From Leucobacter viscericola (GTDB lineage: Bacteria > Actinomycetota > Actinomycetes > Actinomycetales > Microbacteriaceae): a stretch of 64,000 nt of DNA. Positions 3,576 through 58,916 of the stretch are shown piece after piece. Position numbers and translations under genes: made by a program. Numbering within the stretch: position 1 is the stretch's first letter; each line of letters starts with the position of its first letter. The stretch covers positions 3,038,001 through 3,102,000 of the forward strand of contig NZ_CP049863.1 of assembly GCF_011299575.1 (NCBI RefSeq), in the 5' to 3' direction. The notes under the pieces are model-generated. The model searched no databases and was not told where the DNA came from. It was given only the letters and a program-made list of their open reading frames with translations.

Positions 3576-4001
3576 GCGGAAAAGCTTATGGGATTTACGC
3601 CCAGATCGCCAATCGACCCGCTGAAGAGACACCCGAAGACCCCTGGGAAACACCACAACGGCAGGGAAAGAGGCCAATATCCAGATAAAATAAAACTCAG
3701 GTACGTCTGGGGAGACGTTTCAACGATCCATGCCGGAGATCGTTGCAGTTGTGTGCCTGCGATCGAACGAGAGTCACGAAAAAGTTCTGACTTCGCGTTA
3801 GATTCCGTCGCCGATGGAGTTATCCATTGTGTAGCAACGTTGCAAAACGTTGATTTTGTGGTGTTCGCGTGTGTGCGCGTGCATCTCAAAAATACTGGGT
3901 TGGGCAATTGTGTTTTGGGATCTCCAAGGAATGGGTTGAAGAGATTGAGTCGTTTAAGTCAACATAGAAACAACGCCGCGTTGGCGGTGGAGGGTTCGTC
4001 T
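3576..4001 (+). other. Long 5' region of the first surface-protein gene
   Basis: 426 bases between the tRNA and the chosen start of the surface protein. The frame is open through most of it, but the translation lacks any secretion signal and has mixed composition, so I treat it as untranslated. It contains AT-richer patches (around 3685-3700 and 3840-3890) and an inverted CAACG...CGTTG pair near 3835-3853. A purine-rich site GGAGGG (3989-3994) lies 7 nt before TTG 4002. A regulated promoter for the surface protein is expected here, but I could not assign -35/-10 boxes with confidence. Confidence 0.45.
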
Positions 4002-7000
4002 TTGACGAGCCCGATGTATCGGGTGGTTGCCGTTGCACTGGCGCTACTTCTTGCTTTGGTCGCAGCGGTTGGTTCTGGCACGGTGCCGGCGCTCGCCGCA
4101 GGTGGCACGCTGTCAAGCATGAGCTGGAAGCTCGTCGCAGACGGTCAGAGTCCGTTCACCGCTGATAATAGCCCCGGCGGTGATGCTGGCGATCACAACG
4201 GAATCGTTCGCACGCAAGACACGGTGTTTTGGGGGCTCAACTACTCCGCTGCTCAAGACGGAGTTGTTGACTTTGTTCTCACCCTGCCCGCGGGCATGAC
4301 GTGGACAGCAGGATCGACCGACTCAAGCGTTTGTAACGGGGCAGCCGGAGGCACTCTGAGCGCAGACAAGACAGTGCTTACCTGTCAGCGTGAGGTCACT
4401 GCCGGTGATGTCACCCAGCTTCCGTTCTCTGCTGTTGTTGGCGCGCTCGCCAACGGCACCGCGTTGAGCGTTTCGGCTGACGCCGACGGTCTCAATGCCG
4501 TTTCTTCCGACTCACTCGTGGTCTCGGCCGCTCCGAAGACTGAGATTGGAATGTCTGGTGTCAGCCACGAGCAGAACGTCATGGTTGGTGGAACAAAGGG
4601 CATGACCGTGGCCGTCGATGCGCTGCTCGGCGCCAAGATTGATCCTGCCAACCCGAACTTCTTCGGGTATGAGTCACTGAGCAATCCATTCTCAGTCACG
4701 ATCGATGTGCCGGCGGGTGCGGTTCCGTACTCGAGCGGAATGTATGTGGGTGGCGGTTCGGTTGCCGCTTCGCAGCCTGGTGGTCCCGGCACCCCCATCA
4801 CGTACACGGTCACCGGTGCGAACACCAGCTTCCTCAACCCACAGCTCAGCCAGTACATCGGGCCGATGGGTGGGGGAGACTACTCAAAAGCGAGCCTCAT
4901 CGCCGCGTTGCGCGTGAAGGTCTTCATTCCCTACGGGCCTGACCTTGATCCTGAGGTGCCCAAGCCGCTGACCTTCCAGACGGTCAATTTTGACCCGCAG
5001 TCGCTCTCTGGCCAGTCGAACTTTGGTTCGGGGTACGCTCCAGGGCAGCAGCCCGGCGCTACCTGCGATGACTCGGGCCTGAACTGCGTTGTGGTGAACT
5101 TTGAGGTACTCAAGCCTGTACAAATCGGAACGGGCTTCAGCAATGCGATCTCGTTAGCAGCCGACAACGGTCTGATCTATGGTGACCCGAGATCCTCGAT
5201 TGACGGTGGCGAGTCCGTTGTCGTGGGCCAGCGCTACGAGGCTCTCACGAGTGTCTACAACGACGGGACCTCTACTGATCAGCTGCAGAGTCCCTATGCA
5301 AGCCTGACCTGGAATCCGAAAGAGCAGCAGCTCGTGGCACCTCCCACAGTGAAGACTCGGGCCTGGGCAAACATTTGGACGTTCGCCAACAAAAACGATG
5401 TCGCGGTCTCCACCGCGGTCCCGTCGAGCGATTACACCATCGAATACACGGACTTCGCATTTGCGGATCTGTCGGATCGCCAGTCACGCGAGTCGTTCAA
5501 CGACCCGGCAATCAACTGGGTGCAGGATCCGTCGACGCTGCCCGGAGGAATCTCCTCCGTGTCGAGTTACCGCATCAAGTACCTCAAGCCGCTCGACCCG
5601 AACAATGCGATCGGCGTCGTCACGCCACTGCAGCGTGCCGAGGCGAGCGCGTCACTTCCGTCGGGAACTCCGCTGCTTTGGAACTGGCAGGTCGGGGCCG
5701 ACAACGCTCCGCTTGTGAAGTCGAACTACGCGAGCTGGATGGGCGTAAGCTCCTGGCTCGGTGGCATGGTTCAGGCGAGCGGTCCGCTCGTGCGCGCGGA
5801 AGCCTCGTGGCAGAAGGTCGAGGACGCTTCTTACGCGGCGGGCACCGCCGAGCGCGGTGACCTCGCGTACCTGAAGGTCACCCCGACCATCATTGGTCCT
5901 GTCACCGGAGCCGACGCAACCGCAAAGAACGTCCGCTACACCGTCACGTTCCCGAACGCCTGCCTGCAGCCGGTGGAAGCTGCCTTGCCGGAGGGCGCTG
6001 AACTGACTCCGGCGATCCCCGGTAGCGACTGCATGAGCGGCACCCCCGCCAAGATCGTGTTCAAGCTTGGTGATGTGCCGGCGCCGGCCGGTGAAGCCGG
6101 TCCCGCTCCTTACCAGGGACACGCGACGGCGCTCGAGGACTGGTTGATTCCGGTGACTGTGGGAATCGGACACTCCGCCCCGCAGACTGCAGTGACGACA
6201 ATCGTAAGTGAGTCCGACAACGACTCAAGCATCGCAAACAACGAAACGATTGTGTCGGCAAATCCGGCCAGCCTCGATCAGGATCGTACGAAGAAGGTCG
6301 CCCTGACAGTGTCGGGTGCGTCGACCTTCAAGGTTCGCAAATCGGCGGCAACCAAGGTTGCTGGCTACGCGGGGCCGCACGAAAAGTTCCCGTACGTGCT
6401 GAGCTGGTCAAACTCTTCGGTGCAGAGCTACGACCCCGTCTCCATCGTTGACGTGTTGCCCTTTAACGGTGACCAGCGTGGCACCCAGGGCCTGTTGGGT
6501 CCGATCAAGGTGACCGAGGTGTCAGCGAGCATGGCTTCGGGATCCATCGGAAGCGTGCATGTTGAGTACACGACCGATGCGGCAGCAGGCGTTGAGACTG
6601 CAGTGCACACAGCCGGCAACGAATCCGGCGCGACAGGTGTGCAGTGGCACGCGCTCGGTGCTTCGGTGCCCAACGGCGTGACTGCTCTGCGCTTTACCTC
6701 GGATGGTCCTGTGGCCCCCGCAGACATGGGTACGGCAACTGTACGAGTAGAGATGCCAAACCTGACCTCCGATGCGACCATTAACAACAGCCTTGCAGTG
6801 CGTGCGATCGGTGATGCTGGCCTTCAGATCATCTCCTCCGATATCGCTCGACGTCCGTTGCTCTCGTCAGCCTCTGGCATACGTGGAAACGTGTGGCGCG
6901 ACCTCGACTTCGACGGCGCGATTTCGGCGGCGGATGGAAAGTGGCCCGCGGGCGCTGATCGTGTTGAACTGCTGAACGATGCTGGACTCGTTGCGACGTC

Positions 7001-9308
7001 AGACATCGCAGCTGACGGCAGCTACAGTTTCAGCGAGATTTCGGCTGACGACTACACAGTTACGCTGATTGATTCTGAGGCTGACGGCTGGGTGCCCCTG
7101 CTCAACCAGAATGTCACCCCTGTTATCGGTGAAGACGCGGTGGTGGATCTGCTCTACCAAGAGGATGTGCCCGCCGCCAACCTGGAAGACGACAGTGCAA
7201 GCGTTTCTGTCGGCCAGAACGTGAGCGTTGACGTCACAGCAAACGATCAAATCTCACTGCCGCACGCACTGGGAAGTGTGATCTCTGAGCAGAACACAAT
7301 TGCCGTAGCAACGGCTCCGAGCTTCGGAACCGCCACGGTGGGTGCTCCTGTCTCTCCCTCGGTGTACTCGACGATTGCATACACAGCAGCAGCGACCTGG
7401 CCAGCTTCCGCGGCCGGTCAAAGCTCCTACGAAGACACCTTCACCTACTCCTACACCAACGTGCGCGGTACGGTTTCGACCGCAAACGTGACGGTTACCG
7501 TGTACGCGGCACCCGTCGCAGTGGATGATGCCTTCGGAACGATCGCTGACAAGCCAGTGGTGCTTGATCCTCGTCTGAATGACGCTGGCGACGGCATCAC
7601 CTGGTCAACCACCGACCCGGTTGTGACAGGGGACGCCACGGCGAGCTACACATCAGCTGGTCTCTCGGTTACCCCCACCCACGTGTGGGGTGCGACCGAG
7701 ACCGAGTACCCTGTGTCGATTCAGTACTCGATCACAGATAGCCACGGTGGTGCTGCCTCAGCGAACGCGACACTCACTGTGCAGCGTGCTCCGGTTGCAC
7801 AGGCAGCGACCTCGTTGCCGACCATCAAGCTGGGTGACACCGCTTCGTTTGATCCCGAGCTCCTGAACCCGGGCGTTGTTGCGGCATCGGGGATCACCAG
7901 CTCGCTGGTTACTTCGGGCTCCGTGTCGGTTGCGAGCGACCAGCGGGTGAGCTTCACGCCCACCGCTGATGGGCTGCAGAGCTTCCAGCTCACCTACACC
8001 GACAACCTGGGGCAGTCGACCACCGCCACCTACACCGTCATGGTGCAGGCCGGTCCGAAGGTGCTCGTTGACTCCGACAGTATGACCATCGGGGTCGGTC
8101 AGACGGCGAACTTCGGCGAGCCGACCGTGACGACCACGGGCACAATCACCAGCGTGACCTCGGACACCGCAGATGCTGCGGCCGGCGGAAACGTGACGGT
8201 TGATCCTCTCACCGGACGCGCGAGCTTTGTGCACGACGAGTCGAAGCCGACCGGCGACTACTCGTTCAAGGTGAGCTACACCGACGATCTCGGTCAGGTC
8301 GCAACGGTGACCTACAAGGTTCACGTGCAGCCGAAGGCGATCATCAACATTGAGACGAACCGCACCATCGGTGTCCACCAGGACGCTAAGTTCGTTCCGA
8401 GTGAGATCTTGACCGAGGGCAGCCTGGCCTCTGTGACACCGAAGGCGATCGCAAGCTCGAAGTCGATCAACGGGGCCACGGTTGAGACCGATGTCGCAAC
8501 CGGGAGCGTAACCTTCCACTCCAACGATGCAGAACCTGGCGTCTACACCTTCGACGTGGTCTACACCGACAACCTCGGCAACGAGACGACAGTGACCTTC
8601 ACTGTTACGGTGCAGGCTGCTCCGGTGCAGACAGATGCTGAGGTGTTCAGGATCATCCCGCTCAACGGAAAGACCACCTTTGCTGATGCGGTGAGCACCA
8701 CGGGCACCATCGAATCGCGCGAGCTCGGTGGCGCCGCGAAAGATTCGGTGACGATGCAGAGCGGCGGAAGCCTCTTTGACGGAGCCGATCTCAAGCCGGG
8801 CAAGTACACCTGGGAGGTTCGTTATGTCGACAACGTCGGCCAGAGCGTGACCGTGAAGTACACCGTGCAGATTCAGGAGCCGCCGCGTGGCAAGGTCGTG
8901 AAGCTGAAGGTTGCTTATGGCACCGAGCGAGTGATTGTTGATCCGCTCAGCGAAGCGAAGGGAACCAAACTGCAGTCGCTTACCGCGGCCGCCGTCGGTG
9001 CTCCTGGTTCTGGCAAAACGAGCCTCAACAAGACCGGGCTTGTGGTCTACACACCAAACAGCGGCTATAGCGGAACCACTCGCTTCGACGTAACGGTGCG
9101 AGACAACCTCGATCAGACCGCGGCGGTGAGCTACGAGATCACGGTTGAACCGCAAGAGATCGTGGATTATCTCAGCCCGGTGAAGCCCTCGGACCTCGCC
9201 GTAACCGGTGGCAGCGTTAGCTCGCTGTGGCTGTGGAGCTTGCTCGCGCTGCTCCTGGGTGGAGGCTTGCTGCTTGCAAGACTGGTGGGCCGTAGACAGA
9301 AGCGATAA
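4002..9308 (+). CDS. Giant wall-anchored surface protein 1 (SdrD_B/Ig-like repeats, LAVTG)
   Basis: 1768 residues from TTG 4002, chosen for the GGAGGG site 7 nt upstream and because it places a signal peptide (TSPMYRVVAVALALLLALVA, cut near ALAAGG) at the N-terminus; ATG 4014 is the alternative. The N-terminal ~950 residues are adhesin-like beta-rich domains. An SdrD B-like domain follows near residues 955-1040 (GIRGNVWRDLDFDG), then cadherin/Ig-like modules (VDDAFGTIADKPVVLDPRLND), then a series of ~85-residue repeats each ending in a variant of YTDNLGQ...YTVxVQ. The C-terminus has LAVTG (residue 1732), a hydrophobic helix and RRQKR, a class E-type sortase signal. It is exported and presumably linked to peptidoglycan, probably for adhesion or as a surface layer component. 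No sortase gene is in the window. A fused sigma/anti-sigma gene lies just downstream. Confidence 0.85.
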   Translation: MTSPMYRVVAVALALLLALVAAVGSGTVPALAAGGTLSSMSWKLVADGQSPFTADNSPGGDAGDHNGIVRTQDTVFWGLNYSAAQDGVVDFVLTLPAGMTWTAGSTDSSVCNGAAGGTLSADKTVLTCQREVTAGDVTQLPFSAVVGALANGTALSVSADADGLNAVSSDSLVVSAAPKTEIGMSGVSHEQNVMVGGTKGMTVAVDALLGAKIDPANPNFFGYESLSNPFSVTIDVPAGAVPYSSGMYVGGGSVAASQPGGPGTPITYTVTGANTSFLNPQLSQYIGPMGGGDYSKASLIAALRVKVFIPYGPDLDPEVPKPLTFQTVNFDPQSLSGQSNFGSGYAPGQQPGATCDDSGLNCVVVNFEVLKPVQIGTGFSNAISLAADNGLIYGDPRSSIDGGESVVVGQRYEALTSVYNDGTSTDQLQSPYASLTWNPKEQQLVAPPTVKTRAWANIWTFANKNDVAVSTAVPSSDYTIEYTDFAFADLSDRQSRESFNDPAINWVQDPSTLPGGISSVSSYRIKYLKPLDPNNAIGVVTPLQRAEASASLPSGTPLLWNWQVGADNAPLVKSNYASWMGVSSWLGGMVQASGPLVRAEASWQKVEDASYAAGTAERGDLAYLKVTPTIIGPVTGADATAKNVRYTVTFPNACLQPVEAALPEGAELTPAIPGSDCMSGTPAKIVFKLGDVPAPAGEAGPAPYQGHATALEDWLIPVTVGIGHSAPQTAVTTIVSESDNDSSIANNETIVSANPASLDQDRTKKVALTVSGASTFKVRKSAATKVAGYAGPHEKFPYVLSWSNSSVQSYDPVSIVDVLPFNGDQRGTQGLLGPIKVTEVSASMASGSIGSVHVEYTTDAAAGVETAVHTAGNESGATGVQWHALGASVPNGVTALRFTSDGPVAPADMGTATVRVEMPNLTSDATINNSLAVRAIGDAGLQIISSDIARRPLLSSASGIRGNVWRDLDFDGAISAADGKWPAGADRVELLNDAGLVATSDIAADGSYSFSEISADDYTVTLIDSEADGWVPLLNQNVTPVIGEDAVVDLLYQEDVPAANLEDDSASVSVGQNVSVDVTANDQISLPHALGSVISEQNTIAVATAPSFGTATVGAPVSPSVYSTIAYTAAATWPASAAGQSSYEDTFTYSYTNVRGTVSTANVTVTVYAAPVAVDDAFGTIADKPVVLDPRLNDAGDGITWSTTDPVVTGDATASYTSAGLSVTPTHVWGATETEYPVSIQYSITDSHGGAASANATLTVQRAPVAQAATSLPTIKLGDTASFDPELLNPGVVAASGITSSLVTSGSVSVASDQRVSFTPTADGLQSFQLTYTDNLGQSTTATYTVMVQAGPKVLVDSDSMTIGVGQTANFGEPTVTTTGTITSVTSDTADAAAGGNVTVDPLTGRASFVHDESKPTGDYSFKVSYTDDLGQVATVTYKVHVQPKAIINIETNRTIGVHQDAKFVPSEILTEGSLASVTPKAIASSKSINGATVETDVATGSVTFHSNDAEPGVYTFDVVYTDNLGNETTVTFTVTVQAAPVQTDAEVFRIIPLNGKTTFADAVSTTGTIESRELGGAAKDSVTMQSGGSLFDGADLKPGKYTWEVRYVDNVGQSVTVKYTVQIQEPPRGKVVKLKVAYGTERVIVDPLSEAKGTKLQSLTAAAVGAPGSGKTSLNKTGLVVYTPNSGYSGTTRFDVTVRDNLDQTAAVSYEITVEPQEIVDYLSPVKPSDLAVTGGSVSSLWLWSLLALLLGGGLLLARLVGRRQKR

Positions 9309-9317
9309 CAACATGAG

Positions 9318-9356
9318 CCTTCGGGCGGGTATGGTTACTACCCGCCCGAAGGTTTT
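9318..9356 (+). terminator. Terminator after surface protein 1
   Basis: Perfect 14-bp arms, 9318-9331 and 9339-9352 (CCTTCGGGCGGGTA and its complement), 7-nt loop, then TTTT. It separates the surface-protein transcript from the sigma-factor gene that follows. Confidence 0.85.
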
Positions 9357-9374
9357 CGCGTGTGTAAAATCTCA

Positions 9375-9396
9375 TCGACTCCTCGGAATGAGTCGA
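9375..9396 (+). promoter_or_regulatory. Inverted repeat upstream of sigma factor 1
   Basis: TCGACTC and GAGTCGA flank an 8-nt centre (CTCGGAAT), 31 nt before the sigma-factor start. It could be an operator or a 5'-UTR hairpin; nothing else identifies the binder. Confidence 0.35.
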
Positions 9397-9426
9397 TAAT
9401 AAGAAGTGATGCGGGGGGCATGACAG

Positions 9427-10617
9427 ATGGTTCAGGGAGAGGACCCGGGCGGCGCCGGTGAGGTGACCGACGCCGAGCTCATTGAGAGCTATAGAAATGG
9501 CGACACCAGCGCGGCTGCGACACTGTATGTGCGGCACCGCGAGAGTGTGATGCGCCTCTCCCATCGTTTTGTTCCGCCGGGCGCTGTTGAAGAAGTTACC
9601 TCGGAAACCTTCACAAAGGTCTTCGAAACGATCAGCCGCGGCAAAGGACCCAAAGACAACTTTCTGCCGTACACCTTTGCGGCGCTGCGATCGGTCTCGA
9701 CCGACTGGCGGCGCGATCGCGCAAAGTACAACACCGTCGATGAAATCGATGACCTTGAGATTGAGACGGCGCCCGCTGCTGACCGGGAGCTTGAAGAGGG
9801 CGACGCCGAGATTATGGCGGCGTTTCAGCAGCTTCCTGAGCGCTGGCAGAAGGTGCTGTGGCTTCGCACAGTGCAGGAATCTTCCGTGCAAGACATTGCT
9901 CGAGTGGAAAACGTCTCTGCACCCGCGGTGAGTGTGCTCTACCAGAGAGCTCGCGAGGGGTTGCGAAAGAAGTATCTGGAGCAGCTGTCTATCGTTTCGG
10001 CCCGCGGGGCATGCCGCGATTACAGCAAGTCACTTGCGCAGTCATCGTTCGCTTCGCTGTCTGGCCGCCGCCAGAACCAGCTTGAGGCGCACGTGCAGGG
10101 CTGTGAGCGATGCCAGGAGACACGAGAGCAGCTGGATCACCTGGTGCAGCGCTTCTCGAAAACCGCTGCAATGGGCATTCTCCCGGCGGGGCTCGGCGTT
10201 TCTGCACTGTCGGTGAACCTGAGTCGTTCCGCAGCCGCAGCCGCGCTTCTCGGGGCTGGCGCAGCCACGTGGATCACGGCGGCCGTTATTACCTTGCTCG
10301 TTGGTACCGGAGGGGTGCTCGGGGTGCTTGCCGCCATCAACTCGAGCGAGTCTCAGGGGCTCGCCATCGACACCGGCAGTGGGCAGTGCGAGTTAGATGT
10401 TCGGGATCGAGATTCGGGAGCGGGCGTCGAGCTTGCGACCAAGAACACCGGCGAGAAGGCTTGTTTTGTGACGCTGCTGCGCGATGGGGCGGTCATCGAC
10501 GGGCCCAGCGAGGTGCGTAAGGAGCAGGTGCTCGTTACGGCGCGCGCTGGTCGCTATGAGATCGTGATGGCGGCAAACGGCGAAGAGAAACGCCTCGCCT
10601 ACACGGTCGAGCCGTGA
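9427..10617 (+). CDS. ECF-type sigma factor fused to a ZAS anti-sigma-like domain and membrane anchor (copy 1)
   Basis: 396 residues, with a G-rich ribosome site (GCGGGGGG, 9411-9418) ~8 nt upstream. Region 2 lies near residues 28-95 and region 4 with the HTH near 131-184 (LPERWQKVLWL, VSAPAVSVLYQRAREGLR). Then comes a zinc-binding anti-sigma motif with C196, H222, C226 and C229 (HVQGCERC), a transmembrane segment near 280-304 and ~90 outside residues. The usual two-gene pair, sigma plus membrane anti-sigma, is here one polypeptide. Released or unmasked sigma would direct RNA polymerase to its own promoters; plausible targets are the adjacent surface protein and itself. A second gene with the same architecture lies at 51720-52874. 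How the sigma part is freed (proteolysis or conformational change) is not visible. Confidence 0.85.
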   Translation: MVQGEDPGGAGEVTDAELIESYRNGDTSAAATLYVRHRESVMRLSHRFVPPGAVEEVTSETFTKVFETISRGKGPKDNFLPYTFAALRSVSTDWRRDRAKYNTVDEIDDLEIETAPAADRELEEGDAEIMAAFQQLPERWQKVLWLRTVQESSVQDIARVENVSAPAVSVLYQRAREGLRKKYLEQLSIVSARGACRDYSKSLAQSSFASLSGRRQNQLEAHVQGCERCQETREQLDHLVQRFSKTAAMGILPAGLGVSALSVNLSRSAAAAALLGAGAATWITAAVITLLVGTGGVLGVLAAINSSESQGLAIDTGSGQCELDVRDRDSGAGVELATKNTGEKACFVTLLRDGAVIDGPSEVRKEQVLVTARAGRYEIVMAANGEEKRLAYTVEP

Positions 10618-50081: not shown

Positions 50082-51502
50082 GTTCACCAGAAACGATGGC
50101 CGTCAACCTCGACGGCGACGACGACTCTGCCGGTCCCGTACGAGGCACACAGTCGCTACTTCGTATCGGCATGATCTGGCTCGCGGCCAACCTTGTGGTC
50201 ACGACGCTGCTCACCGGAACCCTATTCACGCCCGCCGTGTCGTTTGGCACCGCGAGCGCGATGATCGTGGTGGGCACCCTGATCGGTGTTGTCGTGCTTG
50301 TGCTCGTAGGCAATATGGGAACCCGCACGGGTCTGCCGACCATGGCGCTGACGCGTGGCTCCTTTGGCATCCGCGGCAGTGTGTTGCCCGCGGCAGCGAA
50401 CCTCCTCATCCTGATGGGTTGGAGCTGGGTGCAGGCGATGCTCGCCGGCGTCACCGTGAACTACCTCGTGCACGAGGCGACGGGGTTCTCGAACCCGATG
50501 CTGTTCTCCGCGCTCTGCCAGGCGATTGTTGTGGTGCTCGCTATCTTCGGGCACACCGGCATCTCGCGGGTTGAGCCCTGGCTCGCGCTCGCGATCCTCA
50601 TCGTCATGGGCTTTGTGTTCGCGGCAGCGTTTGGCGCGTTCTCTCCGTCCGAGTTTGCGTCGATCCCGGTTGATACCTCGCTCGGCGGCACACCTTTCAT
50701 CACGCTCGACATGGTGATTGCAACCGCGATCTCGTGGACGGTGCTCTCGGCCGACATGAACCGGCACGCGAAGAGCAGCAAGGCAGGAATCATCGGTTCG
50801 GGAGTCGGCTACACGCTGTCGACCTCGATCGCGATGTTCCTCGGACTTGTTGCTTTCTCGACCGTGCTGCTGCGCGGGCATGACGCTGTTCCGTTCGATC
50901 CGACCGTTATTGTCTCCGAGTTTGGCTGGCCACTCGGCATCGCCATCTTCCTCTCGGTGATGGCAACAAACACCATGGTGGTGTTTGGCATGGTGACCTC
51001 CGTCGTAAACGCGCAGTCCACGTGGCGACTGAAGTTCCTGCCGACCGCGCTGGTGCTCGGGGTTATTTCGGTAATCGGATCAACGTTCCTCGGTCTGTTG
51101 AACCAGTTCACCGACTTCCTGTTTGTGATCAGCGCGTTCTTCGTGCCGGTGTTTGCGATCATGATTGCCGATTACTACCTGCTGAAACGACGCGGTTATT
51201 CCCGCCAGATTTTGCACGAGCGACCCGAGAGCCGCTACTGGTACCTCGGCGGCGTGAACTGGGTTGCGGTTGTGGTCTGGGTCATCGGCGCTGTGCTTTC
51301 GTACATGCTGGCCTACATCACACCAAGCCCGATTGGTGCGAACATTCCCGCGTTTGCGGTGAGCTTCCTGCTCTACCTGGGGCTCATGATGCTTATCGGC
51401 CGTAACGGGGCGATGGGGCTGCGGGATCCGCGCGATGCGCAACCGACAGGTCACCTGCTCGACGGCGCTGACGAAACTGCGGCGCTGCGGCTGGGCGGCT
51501 AG
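50078..51502 (+). CDS. NCS1-family permease (CodB-like)
   Basis: 474 residues, about twelve hydrophobic segments. Features of the cytosine/purine permease branch: NMGTRTGLPTMALTRGSFGIRG near residue 80 and SWTVLSADMNRHAKSSKAG in the middle. It is distinct from the NCS1 protein at 12.3 kb, sharing family motifs only. The coupled start with the NTF2-like gene and the ureohydrolase upstream suggest import of a guanidino, ureido or nucleobase-type compound. A strong terminator follows. Confidence 0.85.
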   Translation: MSSPETMAVNLDGDDDSAGPVRGTQSLLRIGMIWLAANLVVTTLLTGTLFTPAVSFGTASAMIVVGTLIGVVVLVLVGNMGTRTGLPTMALTRGSFGIRGSVLPAAANLLILMGWSWVQAMLAGVTVNYLVHEATGFSNPMLFSALCQAIVVVLAIFGHTGISRVEPWLALAILIVMGFVFAAAFGAFSPSEFASIPVDTSLGGTPFITLDMVIATAISWTVLSADMNRHAKSSKAGIIGSGVGYTLSTSIAMFLGLVAFSTVLLRGHDAVPFDPTVIVSEFGWPLGIAIFLSVMATNTMVVFGMVTSVVNAQSTWRLKFLPTALVLGVISVIGSTFLGLLNQFTDFLFVISAFFVPVFAIMIADYYLLKRRGYSRQILHERPESRYWYLGGVNWVAVVVWVIGAVLSYMLAYITPSPIGANIPAFAVSFLLYLGLMMLIGRNGAMGLRDPRDAQPTGHLLDGADETAALRLGG

Positions 51503-51539
51503 TCGCGACGGGCTTCAGCGCCCGCGTTGATAGATAACA

Positions 51540-51590
51540 AAAACCAGTGGAGCGCCAGAGTCATCACGACTCTGGCGCTCCACTGGTTTT
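51540..51590 (+). terminator. Terminator after the catabolic island
   Basis: Perfect 22-bp arms, 51540-51561 and 51569-51590, 7-nt loop. The right arm ends in TTTT and the left begins AAAA, so it works in both directions. Confidence 0.85.
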
Positions 51591-51719
51591 CGTGTTACGC
51601 AGTGGAAACCGTTGGGCGCACCAACATTCTTGAGTTTTCCACTGAATTTTTGCCTCCTACTACGGGTTATTCGTTCGGTGTACACGGACGCCGAACTTTA
51701 GCTGCAAGTATTGTTCGTT

Positions 51720-52874
51720 GTGAGTTTATGGGGTGAATTCAGTGAATCTGAGCTGTGTGACGTTGTGCGCACAGAGCCCGGAGATTCCGCGCGGAGCCGC
51801 GCGGCGTTCGCTGAGCTCTATTCCCGCAGTTACACGCTCGCATTGGCGAACGCCTATCAGTTCTTAGGCGACGATCACCGCGCCGAAGACGTGGTTTCAG
51901 AAGCTTTCGCAAACACGCTGCGGGCGCTGCAACGCGGTCTCGGCCCCAATGATTCCTTTAACGGGTACCTGATGACTGCCGTGCGGTCGGAGGCGTTCAA
52001 AGTTTCTCCTTCTGAACGCGCCACCGTCTCGGTGTCGCACGACCAGCTTGAGGGGCTCTCTCAATCGGTCGAGCCAGACAGCGCTGTGGGGATCGCCGAG
52101 CGCGACCAACTCATGCGTGCGTTTGAAGCGTTGCCGGAGGACTGGCGGCGGGTGCTCTACCTCATCGAGGTTGCCGGGGAGCCCCCGGTCGTCGCGGCGC
52201 AGAACCTCGAAGTGAGCGTCAGTGCGACCAACGCGCTCCTCTTTCGTGCACGCGAGGGGCTGCGCACGACATATTTGCAACAGTATGTGGAGCGAGCGCA
52301 ACCGCAGTGCGAGGGAATCGCGCCCGCACTGGGGCGGTTCGTTCGCGGCGGGCTTCGTGCGCAGAAGAAAACCAAAGTGGTGAGACACCTGCAGGGTTGC
52401 TCCGCGTGCAGCGCGCAGCTCCACAGGCTGCGTCTCATTAACGAGAACCTGCGCGGTTGGGTTGGCCCCGCAGCTGCGGGGATTGGCCTGGCGGGTGCCG
52501 CATCGTTTGGTGGCAGCGGTTCAGCGGGTGCGGCGGCTCTGACAGGATCCGGTGCGGTCGGTGCGTCGACGGTCGTCGCGGCGAAGCCCGGTCTGGCGCT
52601 GAAAATCTGGATAGGGGCGACTGTCGGGGTGGCCGTAGCGGCGACCGCGGTCGTTCTGTGGCCGAGCGCGGAAGCTCCTGCGCCCGCGGCGCCGGCCCCG
52701 CCAGTAGAGATAGTGACGCCCGAGCCGACGCCCAATCCTGAACCAGCACCGGAGCCAGAACCGCCGCCGCAGCCTGAGCCAGAACCACCGAGTGTGATTC
52801 CTGAGCCTCCAGCGCCCGAGCCGCCAGCTCTATTAGAGGACGACGATTCTCCGAACTGGGTCGAGATCGAGTAG
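51720..52874 (+). CDS. ECF-type sigma factor fused to a ZAS anti-sigma-like domain, membrane anchor and Pro/Glu-rich tail (copy 2)
   Basis: 384 residues from GTG 51720 (TTG 51711 is an alternative; no strong ribosome site for either). Region 2 is near residues 28-95 and region 4 near 132-185 (LPEDWRRVLYLIEVAGEPPV, SATNALLFRAREGL). The zinc motif has C197, H223, C227 and C230 (HLQGCSAC), the same spacing as in the copy at 9427-10617. One membrane helix lies near 293-314, then a 70-residue tail rich in PEP repeats and acidic residues, which could span the wall. It precedes surface protein 2 by 126 nt on the same strand. A membrane-bound sigma factor that sees the outside directly is inferred; release needs proteolysis or another trigger. 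Confidence 0.85.
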   Translation: MSLWGEFSESELCDVVRTEPGDSARSRAAFAELYSRSYTLALANAYQFLGDDHRAEDVVSEAFANTLRALQRGLGPNDSFNGYLMTAVRSEAFKVSPSERATVSVSHDQLEGLSQSVEPDSAVGIAERDQLMRAFEALPEDWRRVLYLIEVAGEPPVVAAQNLEVSVSATNALLFRAREGLRTTYLQQYVERAQPQCEGIAPALGRFVRGGLRAQKKTKVVRHLQGCSACSAQLHRLRLINENLRGWVGPAAAGIGLAGAASFGGSGSAGAAALTGSGAVGASTVVAAKPGLALKIWIGATVGVAVAATAVVLWPSAEAPAPAAPAPPVEIVTPEPTPNPEPAPEPEPPPQPEPEPPSVIPEPPAPEPPALLEDDDSPNWVEIE

Positions 52875-53000
52875 CGGCCGCCGAGACACGAACAAATTCT
52901 TTTTGTCCAGCGCACACATTTTGTATCGCAATCCGCTCTTTATATCTGTGGCACTTTTGCCTGAACGTATGAGCCATAAATGTAGGGAAGCAATATCGTA

Positions 53001-56000
53001 ATGAGCAACAAACCCAGTCATCTTTCACCCGCCCGTGAGCGCAGACGTTCTCGTCTGCGCGCGGGTCTCGGCGGTAGCCTGGCCGTCTTACTGGGAGTAT
53101 CGCTCGCAGGGGCTGCCGTACCGGCGCTGAGCGCGGCGGCGCTGAGTGCTTCGTCAGCGACAGTTTCAGGTGCGACGCCCCTAACGCTCGCCCCCTCGAC
53201 AGAAGCCCCGCTGCTGGCGGTGCCCAGTGACCTACCAACGGCGTCATATACGCCAGAAGACTACTCAGTGGCCGACGAGCCAGCACCACTGAGAGATTGT
53301 GTGCCGAACCTCCTGGGTGCGAGTGGCGACACGAGCATGATCCCCTCACGAGACTTCTGGTTGCTGCGCGGCGACACGATGCAGTTTAAGGCGCTCACAA
53401 CACTCTGCGCGCAGATTAACAATCAGTGGAACTCGACACCCGATCAGCTGAACTTCTCGCCGCCGGCTTCTCGCATCAACTGGTACGACCCAGACGGCGA
53501 CACAAAGGGTGAGGCAGTAGACGTCGGTCCGCTGTGCACGCTGACGGCAACCACCGGCTGCTGGGATCCGACGTTTGCGACGTCGCTGTACAAAGTTACG
53601 GTGACCGATCCAGTTGTTGACTCGGGTTACTACACCCGGCAGGTTTCGGGAATCCGCGCACCTGCGGGCAGGACGGGTGTCGTTCAGGCGGGGTTGGGCA
53701 ACACGACGGGATCCCAGGCGCTGCGAATTGCCGATCCTCAGCTCAAGCTGAAAAAGGAAGTCTGCATCAACTCGGGCGATGCGGGCAACGACGGCACTGG
53801 CGCAGGTGAGGGTTGTGACCCAAACGATGACGCTCTCTGGGTGCCGAGTCAGCTGGTAGCGGCGGATTCGACAGTGCTGTGGCGACTCACGGTGACCAAC
53901 ACCGGCAACGTCAATCTGCAAGACGTGAAGCTTGCAACTGAGACGAGCTCTCCCGAAAGCAACACCGACAGCTGCCTTGCGGGCTTCCAAAACGTGGATC
54001 TTGCCTCCGGTGTGGAGTTTGACGCCGGTGCGGGCGAGTGGTCGGAGGTGCCAAACGAGGACGGCGAGTGGCCGGGTGGTGAGACCGCGAGGCACGTCTG
54101 CGCGACTGAGGTTGGAAAAGCAGACCTGACAAACTCGGCGCACGCAAACGCGACCTTCAGCGAGGTAGACCTCAACGGAAACCCGCTGGTCGATCGATTC
54201 ACGGATCCGATGGACAACAATTCGCACCGGGTCGGCTCAGGAGTTGCGGGCGCCACGGTCCACACTGTGCACGCCGACCTCACGCTCGAGAAGTTTGTGT
54301 GCGCGAGCGGCACCGGCTGTGAACCCTACGAAAGCGACACCTCTGCGTGGGTGAAGTCAACGAGCGTTGACCGGGGGAGTGACGTCGAGTGGACTCTCGT
54401 CGTGACCAACACCGGGAATGTTCCGCTCGGCGAAGTTGCCCTCAACTCCGATGTCTTAACGAATGAAAACGCGGGCAACCTCTCGGACTGCGTGGTCGGC
54501 ACGAAGTTCCCATCCCCCTCGGGCGATGGCCTCCTTGCGGTCGGGGCGTCGACCTCGATCTCCTGCAAAACCCAAAAGGTCGCTAACACCAACAAACTGT
54601 TGCCCCTGATCAATACGGCGAAGGTTTCAGCTACTCCGATCGTGACAAACCCGGATGCGCCCGGCCAGCCCTTCGCGTCTTCGTTGAGTGACGAAGTGTA
54701 CTCAAACGAAGATTCAGCGAGTGTGTTTGCCGAGCTGCACCCGGCACTCACTATTCAGAAGTCTGCGAGTGTTTCGACGGTGTCGAAGGCGAACGACGTG
54801 ATCCAGTACTCGTTCCTGGTGGAGAATACCGGAGACGTGCCCCTGTCCGACGTGAAGGTGACGGACGATCCCGCGAAGTTTACGGGTTCGGGAGCCCTCT
54901 CCGCCATCGTCTGCCCGACGACCGAACTTGCAGTTGGAGCCTCGTTCAACTGCCTGGCTTCGTACAGAGTCACGCAGGCCGACGTTGACGCGGGATCGAT
55001 CCTCAATGTTGCGACAGCGTCGGGCACCTCACCCGAGGGTGACCCGGTAGACGCGCCCGAATCTGAGGTGATCGTCACCGCTCCAGCGGCCCCAGCGATT
55101 TCGCTTGTGAAGTCGGCGGATCGCACAAAGTTTGATGCTGCGGGCGAGAAGGTGGAGTACTCGTTTGTTGTCACAAACACGGGGAACACGACCCTCAAAG
55201 AAATCACCGTGGCCGAAACGAGCTTCACCGGAGAACCCGGCAACCTTGCGGCCGTTGACTGCCCGGCTACAACGCTCGCTCCCGGCGCTTCGGTGACGTG
55301 CACTGCCACCTACACGACGGTGCAGGCCGATGTGGATCGCGGATCGGTCTTGAACACCGCAACCGCCGAGGGCATCTCGCCGGCTGGTGCAGCCGTCGTC
55401 GCAGACCCCTCCGAGTGGAAGCTCACCGCCGAACAGAACCCGGCAGCATCCCTGAAAAAGGTCGCCTACACCGATGAGCTGATCCTGGGAGAGACGGTGA
55501 GGTATGGCTTTCGCGTGACCAACACGGGCAACGTCACACTCACAGACGTTTCTGTGTCTGAGGAATCGTTCACGGGGAATCCCGCGTTCCTTTCCGAGAT
55601 CACGTGCCCGACAGAGCCACTCGCCCCCGGTGAGACGGTTGAGTGCACCGCTAACTACGTGGTGCAGCAGGCCGATGTCCACTCCGGGTACCTGGACAAC
55701 ACAGCAAGTGCAAAAGCGATGCCCTTCGGCATGCTCGGCGCACCTGGTCTTGAGGTGAAGACCTCTCCGAGTGAGACGACACTGCCGGGTGATCCTCGCC
55801 CCGAGCTTGAGCTCGTTAAGACAGCCGATCTCTCGCTCATTAAGGCAGTCGGTGATCCGATTGTTTACACCTTCACCGTAACCAACACTGGCAATGTCAG
55901 GATCAACGACGTGACTGTGGAAGAGACCTCGTTCTCCGGAGACGCGAAGGCGCTCTCAGCGCTGGAATGCCCGACAGATCGGGTGCTTGCTCCGACAGAG

Positions 56001-57356
56001 TCTCTGAGCTGCACTGCCACCTACGCGGCGACGCAGGCAGATCTCGACTCGGGTGCGTTGAAGAACGTGGCGATCGCGACAGGGAAGGCCCCGAGGGGTG
56101 ATGCGGTTGAATCCGCTGAGGCCAAGGTGACGATCCCAACGGATGCGAAACCCGCTATCTCGCTCGTCAAGTCGGTCGATAAGACGTCGGTGTCGAAAGC
56201 CGGAGAGTCGGTGAAGTACTCCTTCGCCGTCACGAACACCGGCAACACAACCTTCACCGATCTAAAGGTTGTGGACGACGCCAAGAAGTTCACCGGAACA
56301 GGCAAGCTCTCCGCGGTGAGCTGCCCGACTACAAAACTCGCGCCGGGCGAGAGCGTAACGTGCACGGCGACGTATGAAATGACCCAGGCCGATATCGACT
56401 CGGGATCGGTTGTCAACGTGGCGACCGCAAACGCAGCGTCGCCGAGTGGGATTGCCGTCACAGCCCCTGAAAGCAAGGCGACGGTTTCAGCCAAGCCGAA
56501 CGCGGGGCTCGCCATTGTGAAGACCGTTGACGCGAAGGTGATCCAATCGGTGGGGCAGACCCTGAACTACTCGTTCAAGGTCACAAACACCGGAAACGTG
56601 ACGATGGGCAACGTCAAGGTGGTCGACGATGCGAAGCAGTTCTCCGGAACGGGGAAGCTCTCCGCGGTGACCTGCCCGGTGACCGTTCTGGCCCCGGGAG
56701 AATCCGTCACCTGCGTTGCCACCTACCGTGTCACGCAGGCTGACCTTGGGACTGAGTCGCTCGACAACGTTGCCTTTGCAACCGGCCTGCCACCTCGTGC
56801 GCCTGGCGCGGTGATCTCTGAGAAGTCCGCTGTTGTGTCCTCCAACAGCGCGGTCACCACTCCGGTGACACCCGCCTCGGGCAACCTCGTTGTTGAGAAG
56901 CAGCTTGACGGTCTTGCGGCAGGAAACGCCGCAGTGCAGGGCAAGGTGTTCAAGATCGCTGTCACGTGTCAGGCACCCGCCGAAAACGGAGGCCCGGGGT
57001 CCGTTCTCTGGTCTGGCGAGGTCAAAATCAAGGGTGGACAAAAGAAGCTGCTCGTTGACGATGCGGGGGATCCGTGGGCCCTTCCCGGTGGTACCCGCTG
57101 CTTCGCGCAGGAGATTGATCGGGGCGGCGCCGACGTCACGACAATCGAGCACGATAGCTGGGAGAACGGCGTGGTTGTGACGGCGGGCAACCCCGCCGAT
57201 CCGCAGCGACTGCAACTCCTCGTGACGAACACGTTCGGACCGTCTGCTCTGGCACTCACGGGTTACGGGGTGTCGGGGATCCTGATCCTCGCGGCCATCG
57301 GCGGGGCAGCGGGCCTCTTGCTGATGTTCGTTCGCCGGCGCAGGCAGAGCGCATGA
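53001..57356 (+). CDS. Giant wall-anchored surface protein 2 (DUF7507 repeats, LALTG)
   Basis: 1451 residues with AGGGAAG upstream. The signal peptide is RRRSRLRAGLGGSLAVLLGV followed by an AxA region. After an N-terminal head come about eight related ~115-residue beta-sandwich modules with YSFxVTNTGN, CPTTxLAPGESVTCTATY and TQADxDSG signatures, the DUF7507 (DUF11-type) pattern. The first two carry extra cysteines. A DUF5979-like domain (NLVVEKQLDGLA, KIAVTCQAP) follows, then LALTG (residues 1417-1421), a hydrophobic helix and RRRRQSA, a sortase signal of LAXTG type. Exported, wall-linked stalk; the head may bind a surface or another cell. Its gene follows the second fused sigma factor and ends with its own terminator. 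Confidence 0.88.
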   Translation: MSNKPSHLSPARERRRSRLRAGLGGSLAVLLGVSLAGAAVPALSAAALSASSATVSGATPLTLAPSTEAPLLAVPSDLPTASYTPEDYSVADEPAPLRDCVPNLLGASGDTSMIPSRDFWLLRGDTMQFKALTTLCAQINNQWNSTPDQLNFSPPASRINWYDPDGDTKGEAVDVGPLCTLTATTGCWDPTFATSLYKVTVTDPVVDSGYYTRQVSGIRAPAGRTGVVQAGLGNTTGSQALRIADPQLKLKKEVCINSGDAGNDGTGAGEGCDPNDDALWVPSQLVAADSTVLWRLTVTNTGNVNLQDVKLATETSSPESNTDSCLAGFQNVDLASGVEFDAGAGEWSEVPNEDGEWPGGETARHVCATEVGKADLTNSAHANATFSEVDLNGNPLVDRFTDPMDNNSHRVGSGVAGATVHTVHADLTLEKFVCASGTGCEPYESDTSAWVKSTSVDRGSDVEWTLVVTNTGNVPLGEVALNSDVLTNENAGNLSDCVVGTKFPSPSGDGLLAVGASTSISCKTQKVANTNKLLPLINTAKVSATPIVTNPDAPGQPFASSLSDEVYSNEDSASVFAELHPALTIQKSASVSTVSKANDVIQYSFLVENTGDVPLSDVKVTDDPAKFTGSGALSAIVCPTTELAVGASFNCLASYRVTQADVDAGSILNVATASGTSPEGDPVDAPESEVIVTAPAAPAISLVKSADRTKFDAAGEKVEYSFVVTNTGNTTLKEITVAETSFTGEPGNLAAVDCPATTLAPGASVTCTATYTTVQADVDRGSVLNTATAEGISPAGAAVVADPSEWKLTAEQNPAASLKKVAYTDELILGETVRYGFRVTNTGNVTLTDVSVSEESFTGNPAFLSEITCPTEPLAPGETVECTANYVVQQADVHSGYLDNTASAKAMPFGMLGAPGLEVKTSPSETTLPGDPRPELELVKTADLSLIKAVGDPIVYTFTVTNTGNVRINDVTVEETSFSGDAKALSALECPTDRVLAPTESLSCTATYAATQADLDSGALKNVAIATGKAPRGDAVESAEAKVTIPTDAKPAISLVKSVDKTSVSKAGESVKYSFAVTNTGNTTFTDLKVVDDAKKFTGTGKLSAVSCPTTKLAPGESVTCTATYEMTQADIDSGSVVNVATANAASPSGIAVTAPESKATVSAKPNAGLAIVKTVDAKVIQSVGQTLNYSFKVTNTGNVTMGNVKVVDDAKQFSGTGKLSAVTCPVTVLAPGESVTCVATYRVTQADLGTESLDNVAFATGLPPRAPGAVISEKSAVVSSNSAVTTPVTPASGNLVVEKQLDGLAAGNAAVQGKVFKIAVTCQAPAENGGPGSVLWSGEVKIKGGQKKLLVDDAGDPWALPGGTRCFAQEIDRGGADVTTIEHDSWENGVVVTAGNPADPQRLQLLVTNTFGPSALALTGYGVSGILILAAIGGAAGLLLMFVRRRRQSA

Positions 57357-57393
57357 GCTAAGCGGGAATCTCCCGCAGGCTGAGTGAGCAACG

Positions 57394-57435
57394 CGAGTCG
57401 AAACCATGGATCCGTCCAGGGTTTCGGCTCGTTTT
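57394..57435 (+). terminator. Terminator after surface protein 2
   Basis: CGAGTCGAAACC (57394-57405) pairs with GGTTTCGGCTCG (57420-57431) with one G-U wobble, followed by TTTT. Confidence 0.75.
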
Positions 57436-57521
57436 GCTATACCCGCGACACAAGATTTGCTGGGGCTTGCCCTGGACCCCTCCAACCCGAGATGATCTTG
57501 TGGATAGATGAGGAGGTCTGG

Positions 57522-58916
57522 ATGTCACCGGACAACACACCCGAGACTGATCACACCCGCATGCACTCGGTTTCAGACGAGACGCGGCGCATCGTGGATC
57601 AGGTGCTCGACTACTCGCGGCGCCGGATCCTGTCCGACGACACTCCGCTTGACCACGCTGCGACCGCGGCGGAGCTTAAGCGACTCGCCGGTGTCACCAT
57701 CAGCGAGGACGGGATCGGAGCCTCTCGGGCCCTCGCGGTGTTTGAGCACGTGCTCGCTCCCGCCTGCATCACAACCGACCACCCGCAGTTTTTGTCCTTC
57801 ATTCCGAGCGCACCATCGAAGGCAGCTGTCGCGTTCGACCTGGTGGTGTCAGCCAGCGCGCTCTATGGAGGCTCCTGGCTTGAGGGTGCCGGAGTCGTGC
57901 ACGCCGAGAACGAGGTGCTGACCTGGCTAGCCAACGAGTTTGGTTTGCCCGCAGGATCGGGTGGTGTGTTCGTGCAGGGCGGCACGATCGGCAACCTGTC
58001 GGCGCTCGTGGCTGCCCGCGAGTATGCACGAGAGCGTCTCGATGATCGTGATGCGCCGCGCGGCCGCTGGGTGATCGTGTGCAGTGCCGAAGCGCACTCG
58101 TCGATCGCATCGGCCGCTCGAGTGATGGACGTCGACGTTGTTGCGGTGCCCGTTGGTGCCGATGGTGTGTTGCGAGCCCCCGAGGTCCGCGCGGCTCTCG
58201 AGGAGCACGGCGACCGGGTAATCGCCGTTGTTGCGACGACCGGATCCACAAACTTTGGCACGGTAGACGACGTTGCGGGAATCGCCGCGCTCAAGCAAGA
58301 ATTTGACTTCTGGCTGCACATCGACGGGGCCTATGGCCTCACGGCAATGCTCTCGCCCCTGACCCGCGAACTCTATGCCGGTGTTGAGGCAGCCGACTCG
58401 GTGATCGTTGATCCACACAAGTGGATGTTCGCCCCCTACGACGCGTGTGCGCTCATCTATCGTGACCCCGAAACCGGGCGCCGCGCACATACTCAGCACG
58501 CGGAGTACCTCGACACGCTCACGGAGGCCGCGGACTGGAGCCCCTCCGACTATGCGGCCCAGCTGACCCGCCGCCCACGCGGCCTGCCGCTCTGGTTTTC
58601 ACTCGCGACGTATGGTGCGACGGCGTATCGCGAGTCGATTGGCCACGCGATCCAGCTTGCCCGCCGAATTGCCGAGGAGATTGCTAAGCGACCAGGGCTC
58701 ACTCTGGTTCGGGATCCGCAGCTCTCTGTTGTGGTCTTTGAGCGAGACGGCTGGGAACGCGCGGACTACAACCGCTGGTCGGATCGTCTGCTTGCGGATC
58801 AACAGGCCTTCGTCGTGCCGAGCTCGTACAACGGTCGGCCCAACGCGCGCTTCGCGATTATTAGCCCGCTGACTACCTTCGAGCAGCTATCCGCGATCCT
58901 CGACACGATGGAGTGA
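57522..58916 (+). CDS. Group II PLP-dependent decarboxylase (aromatic/diaminobutyrate/glutamate type)
   Basis: 464 residues from ATG 57522 with AGGAGG just upstream; a longer frame would overlap the terminator. Family marks: HPQFLSFIPS near the N-terminus, GVFVQGGTIGNLSALVAARE, SAEAHSSIASAARVMDVDVV, the cofactor Asp in WLHIDGAYG and the Schiff-base Lys in VDPHKWMFAPYDA. Substrates in the family include aromatic amino acids, diaminobutyrate, glutamate and cysteine sulfinate, and cannot be separated here. Leucobacter walls contain diaminobutyrate, so a diaminobutyrate link is possible but only a guess. It has no operon partner before the rRNA region. Confidence 0.85.
   Translation: MSPDNTPETDHTRMHSVSDETRRIVDQVLDYSRRRILSDDTPLDHAATAAELKRLAGVTISEDGIGASRALAVFEHVLAPACITTDHPQFLSFIPSAPSKAAVAFDLVVSASALYGGSWLEGAGVVHAENEVLTWLANEFGLPAGSGGVFVQGGTIGNLSALVAAREYARERLDDRDAPRGRWVIVCSAEAHSSIASAARVMDVDVVAVPVGADGVLRAPEVRAALEEHGDRVIAVVATTGSTNFGTVDDVAGIAALKQEFDFWLHIDGAYGLTAMLSPLTRELYAGVEAADSVIVDPHKWMFAPYDACALIYRDPETGRRAHTQHAEYLDTLTEAADWSPSDYAAQLTRRPRGLPLWFSLATYGATAYRESIGHAIQLARRIAEEIAKRPGLTLVRDPQLSVVVFERDGWERADYNRWSDRLLADQQAFVVPSSYNGRPNARFAIISPLTTFEQLSAILDTME

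Follow-up and report, generated by a model that had tools for sequence, protein, structure and literature searches.

Sigma/anti-sigma fusion genes beside genes for giant surface proteins in Leucobacter viscericola: candidate dedicated switches and their relatives

Background

Does each giant surface protein of Leucobacter viscericola have a sigma factor of its own? The question is raised by a stretch of 64,000 nucleotides (the window; contig NZ_CP049863.1, positions 3,038,001 to 3,102,000, forward strand), where a gene for a sigma/anti-sigma fusion protein (51720-52874) stands before a gene for a giant surface protein (53001-57356), and where a similar pair, here called copy 1, lies at 3588-10617. 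An earlier note had proposed that such pairs form a modular system in which every surface protein is served by a dedicated sigma switch, perhaps for phase- or contact-dependent expression. We examined the two pairs, the other copies in the genome and their relatives in Actinobacteria; fetched loci are designated L and genomes G, and gene calls were made with a simple caller trained on the own genome (G000). Our reading, to which we assign a rough probability of 0.72, is that the product of 51720-52874 is a membrane-tethered extracytoplasmic function (ECF) sigma factor with a built-in anti-sigma domain, acting as the dedicated activator of 53001-57356. The idea of one sigma switch per surface protein appears well supported by the sequence comparisons, with some switches possibly serving more genes.

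Anatomy of the fusion and of the adjacent surface protein

The fusion gene (51720..52874, + strand, like all features below unless stated) starts with GTG, a TTG also being in frame at 51711, and encodes 384 residues. Sigma regions 2 (residues 33-92; 51816..51995; Sigma70_r2, E 9.8e-8) and 4 (residues 129-179; 52104..52256; Sigma70_r4_2, E 2.6e-6) were recognised by Pfam over the cut-offs and are its only sigma regions, as expected of an ECF factor; TIGR02937 gave 46.5 bits, above its cut-off of 42.9. A profile built from 17 relatives matched, at residues 20-183, ECF sigma factors of solved structure and, at residues 193-255 (52296..52484), the anti-sigma domain of ChrR, known from solved SigE-ChrR structures (E 7.7e-4). 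This second domain carries four zinc ligands, C197, H223, C227 and C230, invariant in our alignment A3; the last three form the Hx3Cx2C motif which, with a ChrR-like helical domain, marks class I (zinc) anti-sigma factors. Taken as a single sequence, the protein scored E 0.003 and 18.1 bits with zf-HC2, under the cut-off of 22.2; the anti-sigma domain was accepted despite this, because of the ChrR profile match and of the confident helices in the AlphaFold model. In that model (mean pLDDT 73.7) both sigma and anti-sigma helices are confident and the linker and tail are not, and its best fold matches are ECF sigma structures, spanning residues up to about 192. Hydropathy places a single transmembrane (TM) helix at about residues 291-311 (52590..52652); it is followed by a Pro/Glu-rich stalk, presumably extracellular (52653..52838), and by a C-terminal peptide, DDDSPNWVEIE (52839..52871), which alignment A3 identifies as conserved, with the form DDxTPxWxLxE in the clade called A below.

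The neighbouring gene (53001..57356) begins after a gap of 126 bases and encodes a protein of 1451 residues with eight DUF7507 stretches (Pfam) and hydrophobic stretches at residues 21 and 1415. It ends with a sorting signal (57249..57353) made of LALTG, a TM helix and an RRRR tail, to which TIGR01167 gave 14.0 bits, under its cut-off of 15.9. The protein thus has what a sortase-anchored product should have, namely an export signal, LALTG, TM helix and RRRR, in a genome with sortase genes, three of which were matched. Beside these three matches the genome has 61 to the LPXTG anchor model (E 1 or better, some under the cut-off).

Comparison of the two modules in the window

The architecture and the ligands recur in copy 1, as had been claimed before. 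Its fusion (9427..10617, 396 residues; Pfam, alignment) has its zinc ligands at C196, H222, C226 and C229, with a spacing of 26-4-3 that is identical to that of the 51720 fusion, and the two proteins share 30% identity over 239 columns (E 1.4e-23). The sequences indicate that they are paralogues, but distant ones: the closest relative of the 51720 fusion in its own genome is the copy at G000:3341747, with 40% identity. Copy 1 also has a giant LAXTG-type neighbour (LAVTG; open frame 3588..9308, likely start near 4000; Pfam, sequence). The two surface proteins were said to be built from different repeat families; this holds, as there is no significant similarity between them (best E 1.5) and copy 1 has four Big_9 stretches over the cut-off in place of DUF7507, while the SdrD_B repeats named for it were found only under the cut-off. 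A local duplication was considered as the origin of both modules and rejected, given 30% identity between the sigma parts, unrelated surface proteins and different sigma clades.

Linkage of fusions with surface genes

The genome of L. viscericola is a single contig of 3,697,133 bases. Searching it with the 51720 fusion protein gave 22 matches below E 1e-8, 21 of which are fusions with an Hx3Cx2C domain, the remaining one (L028) being without a zinc domain. A gene for a protein with a sortase signal is the direct neighbour of 18 of these 21 fusions, namely the 51720 gene and 17 of the 20 distinct fetched copies (L019:311-1735 and L023:5311-6735 are one fusion). The 17/20 does not change under a strict LxxTG motif, for which the background is 3/79. 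Two loci of this genome have an unusual form. At L028 (8360-9749, near G000:2794000) a sigma factor and a small protein with two TM helices are separate genes, followed by a gene of 441 residues, possibly an unfused form of the same module; at L017 (8739-10744, near G000:2028400) the sigma and zinc part and the TM/outer part lie in two overlapping frames, which may reflect a split gene, a frameshift or a sequencing error.

Among the matches listed, relatives of the 51720 fusion at E 1e-8 or better, fused or not, occur in 46 of 54 Leucobacter genomes, with 0 to 7 copies per genome, apart from 13 in G012 and the 22 of the own genome. From the other Leucobacter 80 loci were taken, mostly the best of the relatives listed and with tiny contigs skipped; among their 83 fusions are some truncated at the end of a locus and those of L036 and L037, two loci that are nearly identical. 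In 49 of the 83 a direct neighbour has the strict motif (background 11/410), and with a lax sorting motif the direct neighbour qualifies in 53/83 and a gene within two genes in 62/83. Two multi-copy genomes of other genera, G056 and G071 (the latter including L121), gave 18/27 strict and 22/27 lax, with a strict background of 3/79. In other genera of the family the linkage is 0/19 strict and 3/19 lax; the lax motif also picks up ordinary membrane proteins, and these three vanish under the strict one. In the wider class it is 1/20, with a background of 2/135. For each genome no more than 7 candidates were scored in the class and 19 in the family, so that copy numbers there are lower bounds. Background linkage across the groups is 0-4%. 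When the first set of loci was counted, a sorting-signal gene adjoined 69/103 fusions (one counted twice) and 26/578 distant genes.

Conservation of the neighbourhood beyond this genome had been named in the earlier note as one of the points on which its proposal would stand or fall, to be judged by counting LPXTG-type genes near ECF proteins with a zinc domain and a TM helix. The counts show that the link does recur in other Leucobacter and in G056 and G071, and that it is absent from the 19 fusions counted in other genera of the family. Some single cases come from other named genera: the Brevibacterium fusions L171 and L175 stand beside divergent LPRTG proteins and L173 and L174 do not, and an Auraticoccus fusion (L189) adjoins a 2263-residue LASTG protein. 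To judge from these sequences, fusions of this type are widespread in Actinobacteria, and what is particular to the lineages in which they multiplied is the link with surface genes.

Sigma clades and gene arrangement

A tree was built from the sigma and anti-sigma part of the fusions; copy 1 entered it as L020, and the window copy at 51720, which is outside the tree, was assigned to clade A by nearest similarity. Copies with like outer parts and gene arrangement largely group by sigma clade. In clade A the sigma gene mostly comes first, and the protein has a short stalk ending in DDxTPxWxLxE, this end being conserved and the stalk not (alignment A3). In clade C, to which copy 1 belongs, the surface gene mostly comes first and the fusion has a small outer domain, and in clade D the two genes are mostly divergent. 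Since the clades differ in this way, the inverted gene order of the two window modules, correctly described before, proves to be clade-specific. In the leaf order of the midpoint-rooted tree, 19 of the 20 class-level copies are adjacent, apart from clade A.

Some copies deviate in their outer ends. Three Leucobacter fusions (L090, L100, L102) share another common end, YFGDWTGW or similar, near the C-terminus. In L031 (8131-9438, genome G048) the frame lacks the conserved C-terminal peptide and an SPNW-like end is found in another frame past the stop, so that its stalk appears frameshifted.

Promoter-like motifs

In clade A the pattern TGTAAC-N15..19-[GC]TCTTTA was read between the sigma and the surface genes. 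Within the 2.83 Mb of fetched DNA it has 11 matches, each directly upstream of the gene next after a clade A sigma gene. In the 54 whole Leucobacter genomes there are again 11, in 10 genomes, and their coordinates place every one of them in the interval from the stop codon of a clade A sigma gene to the gene behind it; the reversed pattern, used as control, gave 8 matches in the 54 genomes. As the motif was first read in loci later counted as matches, the genome scan is a test of its specificity and not a discovery. Two of the matches are in G005, where there are two clade A modules. The gene after the motif encodes a detected sorting signal in 9 of 11 cases, the other two products having 1681 (L040) and 572 residues (L045). 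No copy was found before any sigma gene in the 54 genomes, and there is therefore no sign of autoregulation through this motif. Several clade A sigma genes are preceded by a TTAT-containing, -10-like string.

Clade D is associated with GTCACGAN12-17GTGTTA, which has 24 matches in 20 of the 54 genomes (reversed control 7). Thirteen were opened and precede genes for surface-type proteins. In nine of these proteins a sorting signal was detected (L053, L082, L088, L092, L101, L103, L245, L247, L250); the other four (L071, L109, L246, L248) are large and showed none. Six more, by coordinates only, flank a fusion gene on its divergent side (G004, G005, G028, G031, G039, G046). The other five are G019:C6, which was unopened, L249, before a gene of 329 residues, and three matches in L. 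viscericola itself; two of these, L251 and L252, were opened and look like chance matches. Three of the surface genes behind this motif, L245 (752 residues), L247 (531) and L250 (517), all LATTG, have no fusion within the 4-kb stretch examined, and the wiring of sigma factors to surface genes is therefore unlikely to be strictly one-to-one.

A pilus class of modules has its own pattern, GTCACATT followed by CTCT at 12-15 bases, read in five loci. For clades B, C1, C2, E and Fd the enumeration of dyads gave no convincing motif.

Pilin-like outer parts

Five Leucobacter fusions of the pilus class end in a sorting signal of their own: L063 and L065 (LARTG), L067 and L081 (LSNTG) and L087 (LVNTG). 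Their outer parts are 45-56% identical to the end of the pilin encoded next to them, and they stand before genes for a large LPxTG protein and an LPLTG pilin. The loci resemble those of SpaA-type sortase-dependent pili: L063, with its fusion at 7601-9328, and L072 have a large protein with SpaA domains, a GramPos_pilinD1/SpaA backbone pilin and a sortase (Pfam for L063). In Arthrobacter alkaliphilus a single frame (L178:8863-11496, +) joins sigma region 2, the zinc domain and a TM helix to a whole pilin, in which Pfam recognised GramPos_pilinD1, pilinBB and SpaA and which has an LPTTG anchor; this pilin part is 79% identical over 450 residues to the pilin encoded two genes on, which is followed by a gene of 282 residues in the sortase position, as judged by placement only. 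Such fusions would sense with a copy of the very product that they are presumed to regulate. We know of no sigma factor described as carrying a pilin and a sorting signal.

When every fusion with an outer part of at least 40 residues was compared with its own neighbour, clear similarity was found only in the five pilus-type Leucobacter fusions, other values being no better than E 0.07 and 0.71. A similarity at L147 was rejected, two paralogous fusions having been miscalled as neighbours. In the sequences compared, mimicry is limited to the pilus class and Arthrobacter.

Proposed mechanism and alternatives

Under the dedicated-activator reading, the zinc domain would at rest keep sigma regions 2 and 4 at the membrane's inner surface. 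Once the extracellular tail had picked up a signal, a first cut would be made outside and then an intramembrane cut by an M50 protease, one match to which exists in the genome; activation by proteolysis is also the model put forward for ECF48, ECF52 and ECF53 fusions in the available parts of PMC8999054. The freed sigma part could then bind RNA polymerase and fire an ECF-type promoter directly upstream of the surface gene. With 21 fusions having diverged sigma domains, tails and promoters, the surface proteins may be switched separately. The tail probably senses the state of the surface structure itself, because relatives with pilus modules have a copy of the pilin as the outer part of the fusion. 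A more specific version is conceivable, and we hold it tentatively, at somewhat less than even odds: the outer part would either mimic the controlled structure or bind to it. The pilus-class fusion would then be a sortase substrate, and a sigma-pilin chimera covalently joined to the growing pilus or wall could pass assembly state or pulling force on to transcription of the pilus operon; in clade A the peptide DDxTPxWxLxE would dock on the surface protein or on its sorting machinery.

This reading draws on the anatomy, the multiplicity and linkage of the fusions, the clade-specific promoter-like motifs of clades A and D and the pilin mimicry in relatives; in addition, a promoter matrix was derived from 28 sites, in most of which the -35 is preceded, at about 10-20 bases, by an A/T-rich stretch. 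With the A/T stretch and the -35 together, 23 of 73 held-out surface genes scored above the 95% point of intergenic sequence (p 7e-9), as did 1 of 15 surface genes far from fusions; taken by themselves, 7/18 of the own genome and 8/26 of other genera were above the 95% point of the all-gene background. For some of clades B, C1, C2, E and Fd the matrix gave weak candidates. Before 53001-57356 we located a candidate ECF promoter, CACATT-N14-GCTCTTTA (52915..52942), ending 58 bases before the ATG, with an A/T-rich, UP-element-like tract at 52891..52904, like that of most training sites. Its pattern resembles the pilus-class motif. For copy 1 the upstream part of a weak candidate was found, an A-tract followed by GTTAGATT near 3797 (3779..3804; score 9.5, all-gene 95% point 8.4), and the same combination precedes the surface genes of L139 and L140, in copy 1's clade. 

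Several results count against the dedicated activator. Three of the 21 own fusions (L022, L025, L030) have no signal-bearing direct neighbour, their neighbours including large or secreted-looking proteins without a detected signal, and 34 of the 83 fusions in other Leucobacter have no direct neighbour with the strict motif. Among the own paralogues the similarity of sigma parts and that of surface proteins are uncorrelated overall (Mantel 0.13, a value reached in 252 of 2000 permutations), although for 10 of 18 the closest relative by sigma part is the closest by surface protein as well; in G056 the two similarities are correlated (0.46; 0 of 2000 permutations as high). Some of the 73 held-out loci belong to clades used in training, and the -35 part alone gave 7/73 (p 0.065), with no separation from intergenic background. 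As for the 51720 module itself, the pattern CACATTN{12,15}GCTCTTTA, although it has a sole match in the own genome, was written after inspection of the 52915-52942 region; the exact clade A motif has no match in the own genome, so that the candidate promoter of 53001-57356 is off the clade A consensus; and the pooled matrix chose another position near it, with a score of 3.1, the 95% point of the all-gene background being 8.4.

A serious competitor, although we consider it rather unlikely, is that each fusion drives a regulon, acting in trans on other surface or envelope genes, with the neighbour as the most conserved target. The clade D motifs before the fusion-free LATTG genes L245, L247 and L250 would fit this, and SCO4117 of Streptomyces is reported as pleiotropic in the accessible text of PMC5826349, whereas no exact clade A motif lies away from clade A modules in the 54 genomes, degenerate sites being of a kind that would escape such a scan. 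It is improbable, in our judgement, that there is co-location without wiring, accessory fusions and surface genes gathering in variable regions while the sigma factors act elsewhere. Surface genes are indeed numerous in this genome, as the 61 LPXTG-model matches given above indicate, and outside the expanded lineages the fusions are unlinked (strict 0/19 and 1/20); yet the excess of sorting-signal genes beside fusions (69/103 and 26/578, as above), a rare clade A motif placed between both genes and nowhere else in 54 genomes, and an arrangement and outer part that largely track the sigma clade are all poorly accounted for by mere clustering. The claim of a modular system is supported as far as linkage in the own genome, recurrence in relatives and the clade A motif are concerned, and finds its limits where it implied a strict one-to-one wiring or a general link.

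The remaining alternatives concern the cue and the level of control, and we give little credit to either. If the zinc domain sensed redox state or zinc in the cytoplasm and the tail were a mere anchor, the cue would be oxidative stress and not the surface; the anti-sigma domain does match ChrR, and zinc anti-sigma domains include redox sensors according to the portion of PMC7406223 at hand. The same portion counts the zinc motif in 48% of membrane-bound class I anti-sigma factors, where its authors read it as non-sensing; moreover, the outer end is conserved in clade A when the stalk is not, and other clades carry outer domains (SpaA-type, whole pilins) that a mere anchor would not need. Equally hard to credit as the principal control is a scheme in which the surface protein is expressed phase-variably and the sigma switch forms a second layer. 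In L036 and L037 (near-identical loci), L038 and L046, all of clade A, the linked surface gene has a run of 13-14 G close to its start, which amounts to 4 of 136 linked surface genes as compared with 1 of 1347 background genes, and the own fusion L017 and the Leucobacter copy L031 are broken in frame. Against it, 132 of the 136 linked genes (window genes not included) have no such run, and none of nine or more G was seen by eye in 51441-53160. The suggestion of phase-dependent expression is therefore retained as a hint for the four G-tract loci only, where a slippage layer is plausible.

Relation to known systems

The closest described proteins are those of groups ECF52, ECF53 and ECF48, among them SCO4117 of Streptomyces coelicolor, for which the consulted sections of PMC8999054 and PMC5826349 describe an actinobacterial ECF domain with zinc finger, TM helix and Pro-rich C-terminal extension. 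The 51720 product has this ECF52 layout, the zinc domain, the TM helix and the Pro-rich extension all being C-terminal to the sigma domain. SCO4117 is presented in the same sections as the sole ECF52 member of its genome, pleiotropic and with a carbohydrate-binding domain, whereas here there are 21 fusions, most of them beside a sortase-signal protein. Pfam matched no C-terminal carbohydrate-binding domain in the 51720 product, whose tail ends in DDDSPNWVEIE.

In the SigI/RsgI units of Clostridium thermocellum the first step of activation is an autoproteolysis. These units offer a parallel in being paralogous pairs, several to a genome, of sigma and membrane-bound anti-sigma factors with sensors, diverged promoters and surface machinery under their control, as far as the sections seen of PMC4711584 and PMC12203970 describe them. 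They differ in that they belong to the Sigma-I family, have separate sigma and anti-sigma proteins and sense polysaccharides, while the 51720 product is a single fused ECF protein. Another fused case, IutY, answers the siderophore aerobactin in iron starvation via a receptor pathway. It belongs to ECF243, in which a membrane anti-sigma factor fused to the sigma factor is released by regulated proteolysis (PMC8999054, in the part available). IutY differs in being Gram-negative and in having to do with no sortase or pilus.

Fused sigma factors like ECF52 and ECF53 are thus known (for ECF52, the passages seen of PMC5826349), as are multi-copy sigma sets with private sensors in cellulolytic clostridia (PMC4711584, likewise in part). 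What would be new is the wiring to surface proteins and the pilin-mimic sensors: neither sigma-pilin chimeras nor a wiring of fusions to sortase-anchored proteins is described in the open-licence PMC literature searched, outside which the main ECF reclassification paper lies. If the reading is right, private membrane-tethered sigma factors govern a large set of giant surface proteins and of pili in an actinobacterial group, which would explain how these can be expressed separately. One genome would then hold some twenty naturally diverged pairs of sigma factor and promoter, possibly usable as orthogonal switches, and the sigma-pilin chimeras would be sensors whose ligand, the assembly state of the pilus, can be guessed from the sequence.

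Other features of the two modules

A scan for sigma-70 promoters found no site in 51450-57700. Upstream of the 51720 sigma gene a terminator scan listed an intrinsic-terminator-like stem of 20 pairs (51543..51587, no strand assigned). In copy 1, the gap between the surface and the sigma gene (9309-9426) contains, by eye, a G+C-rich hairpin followed by TTTT, which a program scan did not list; because of it, the two genes of copy 1 may not form one plain operon.

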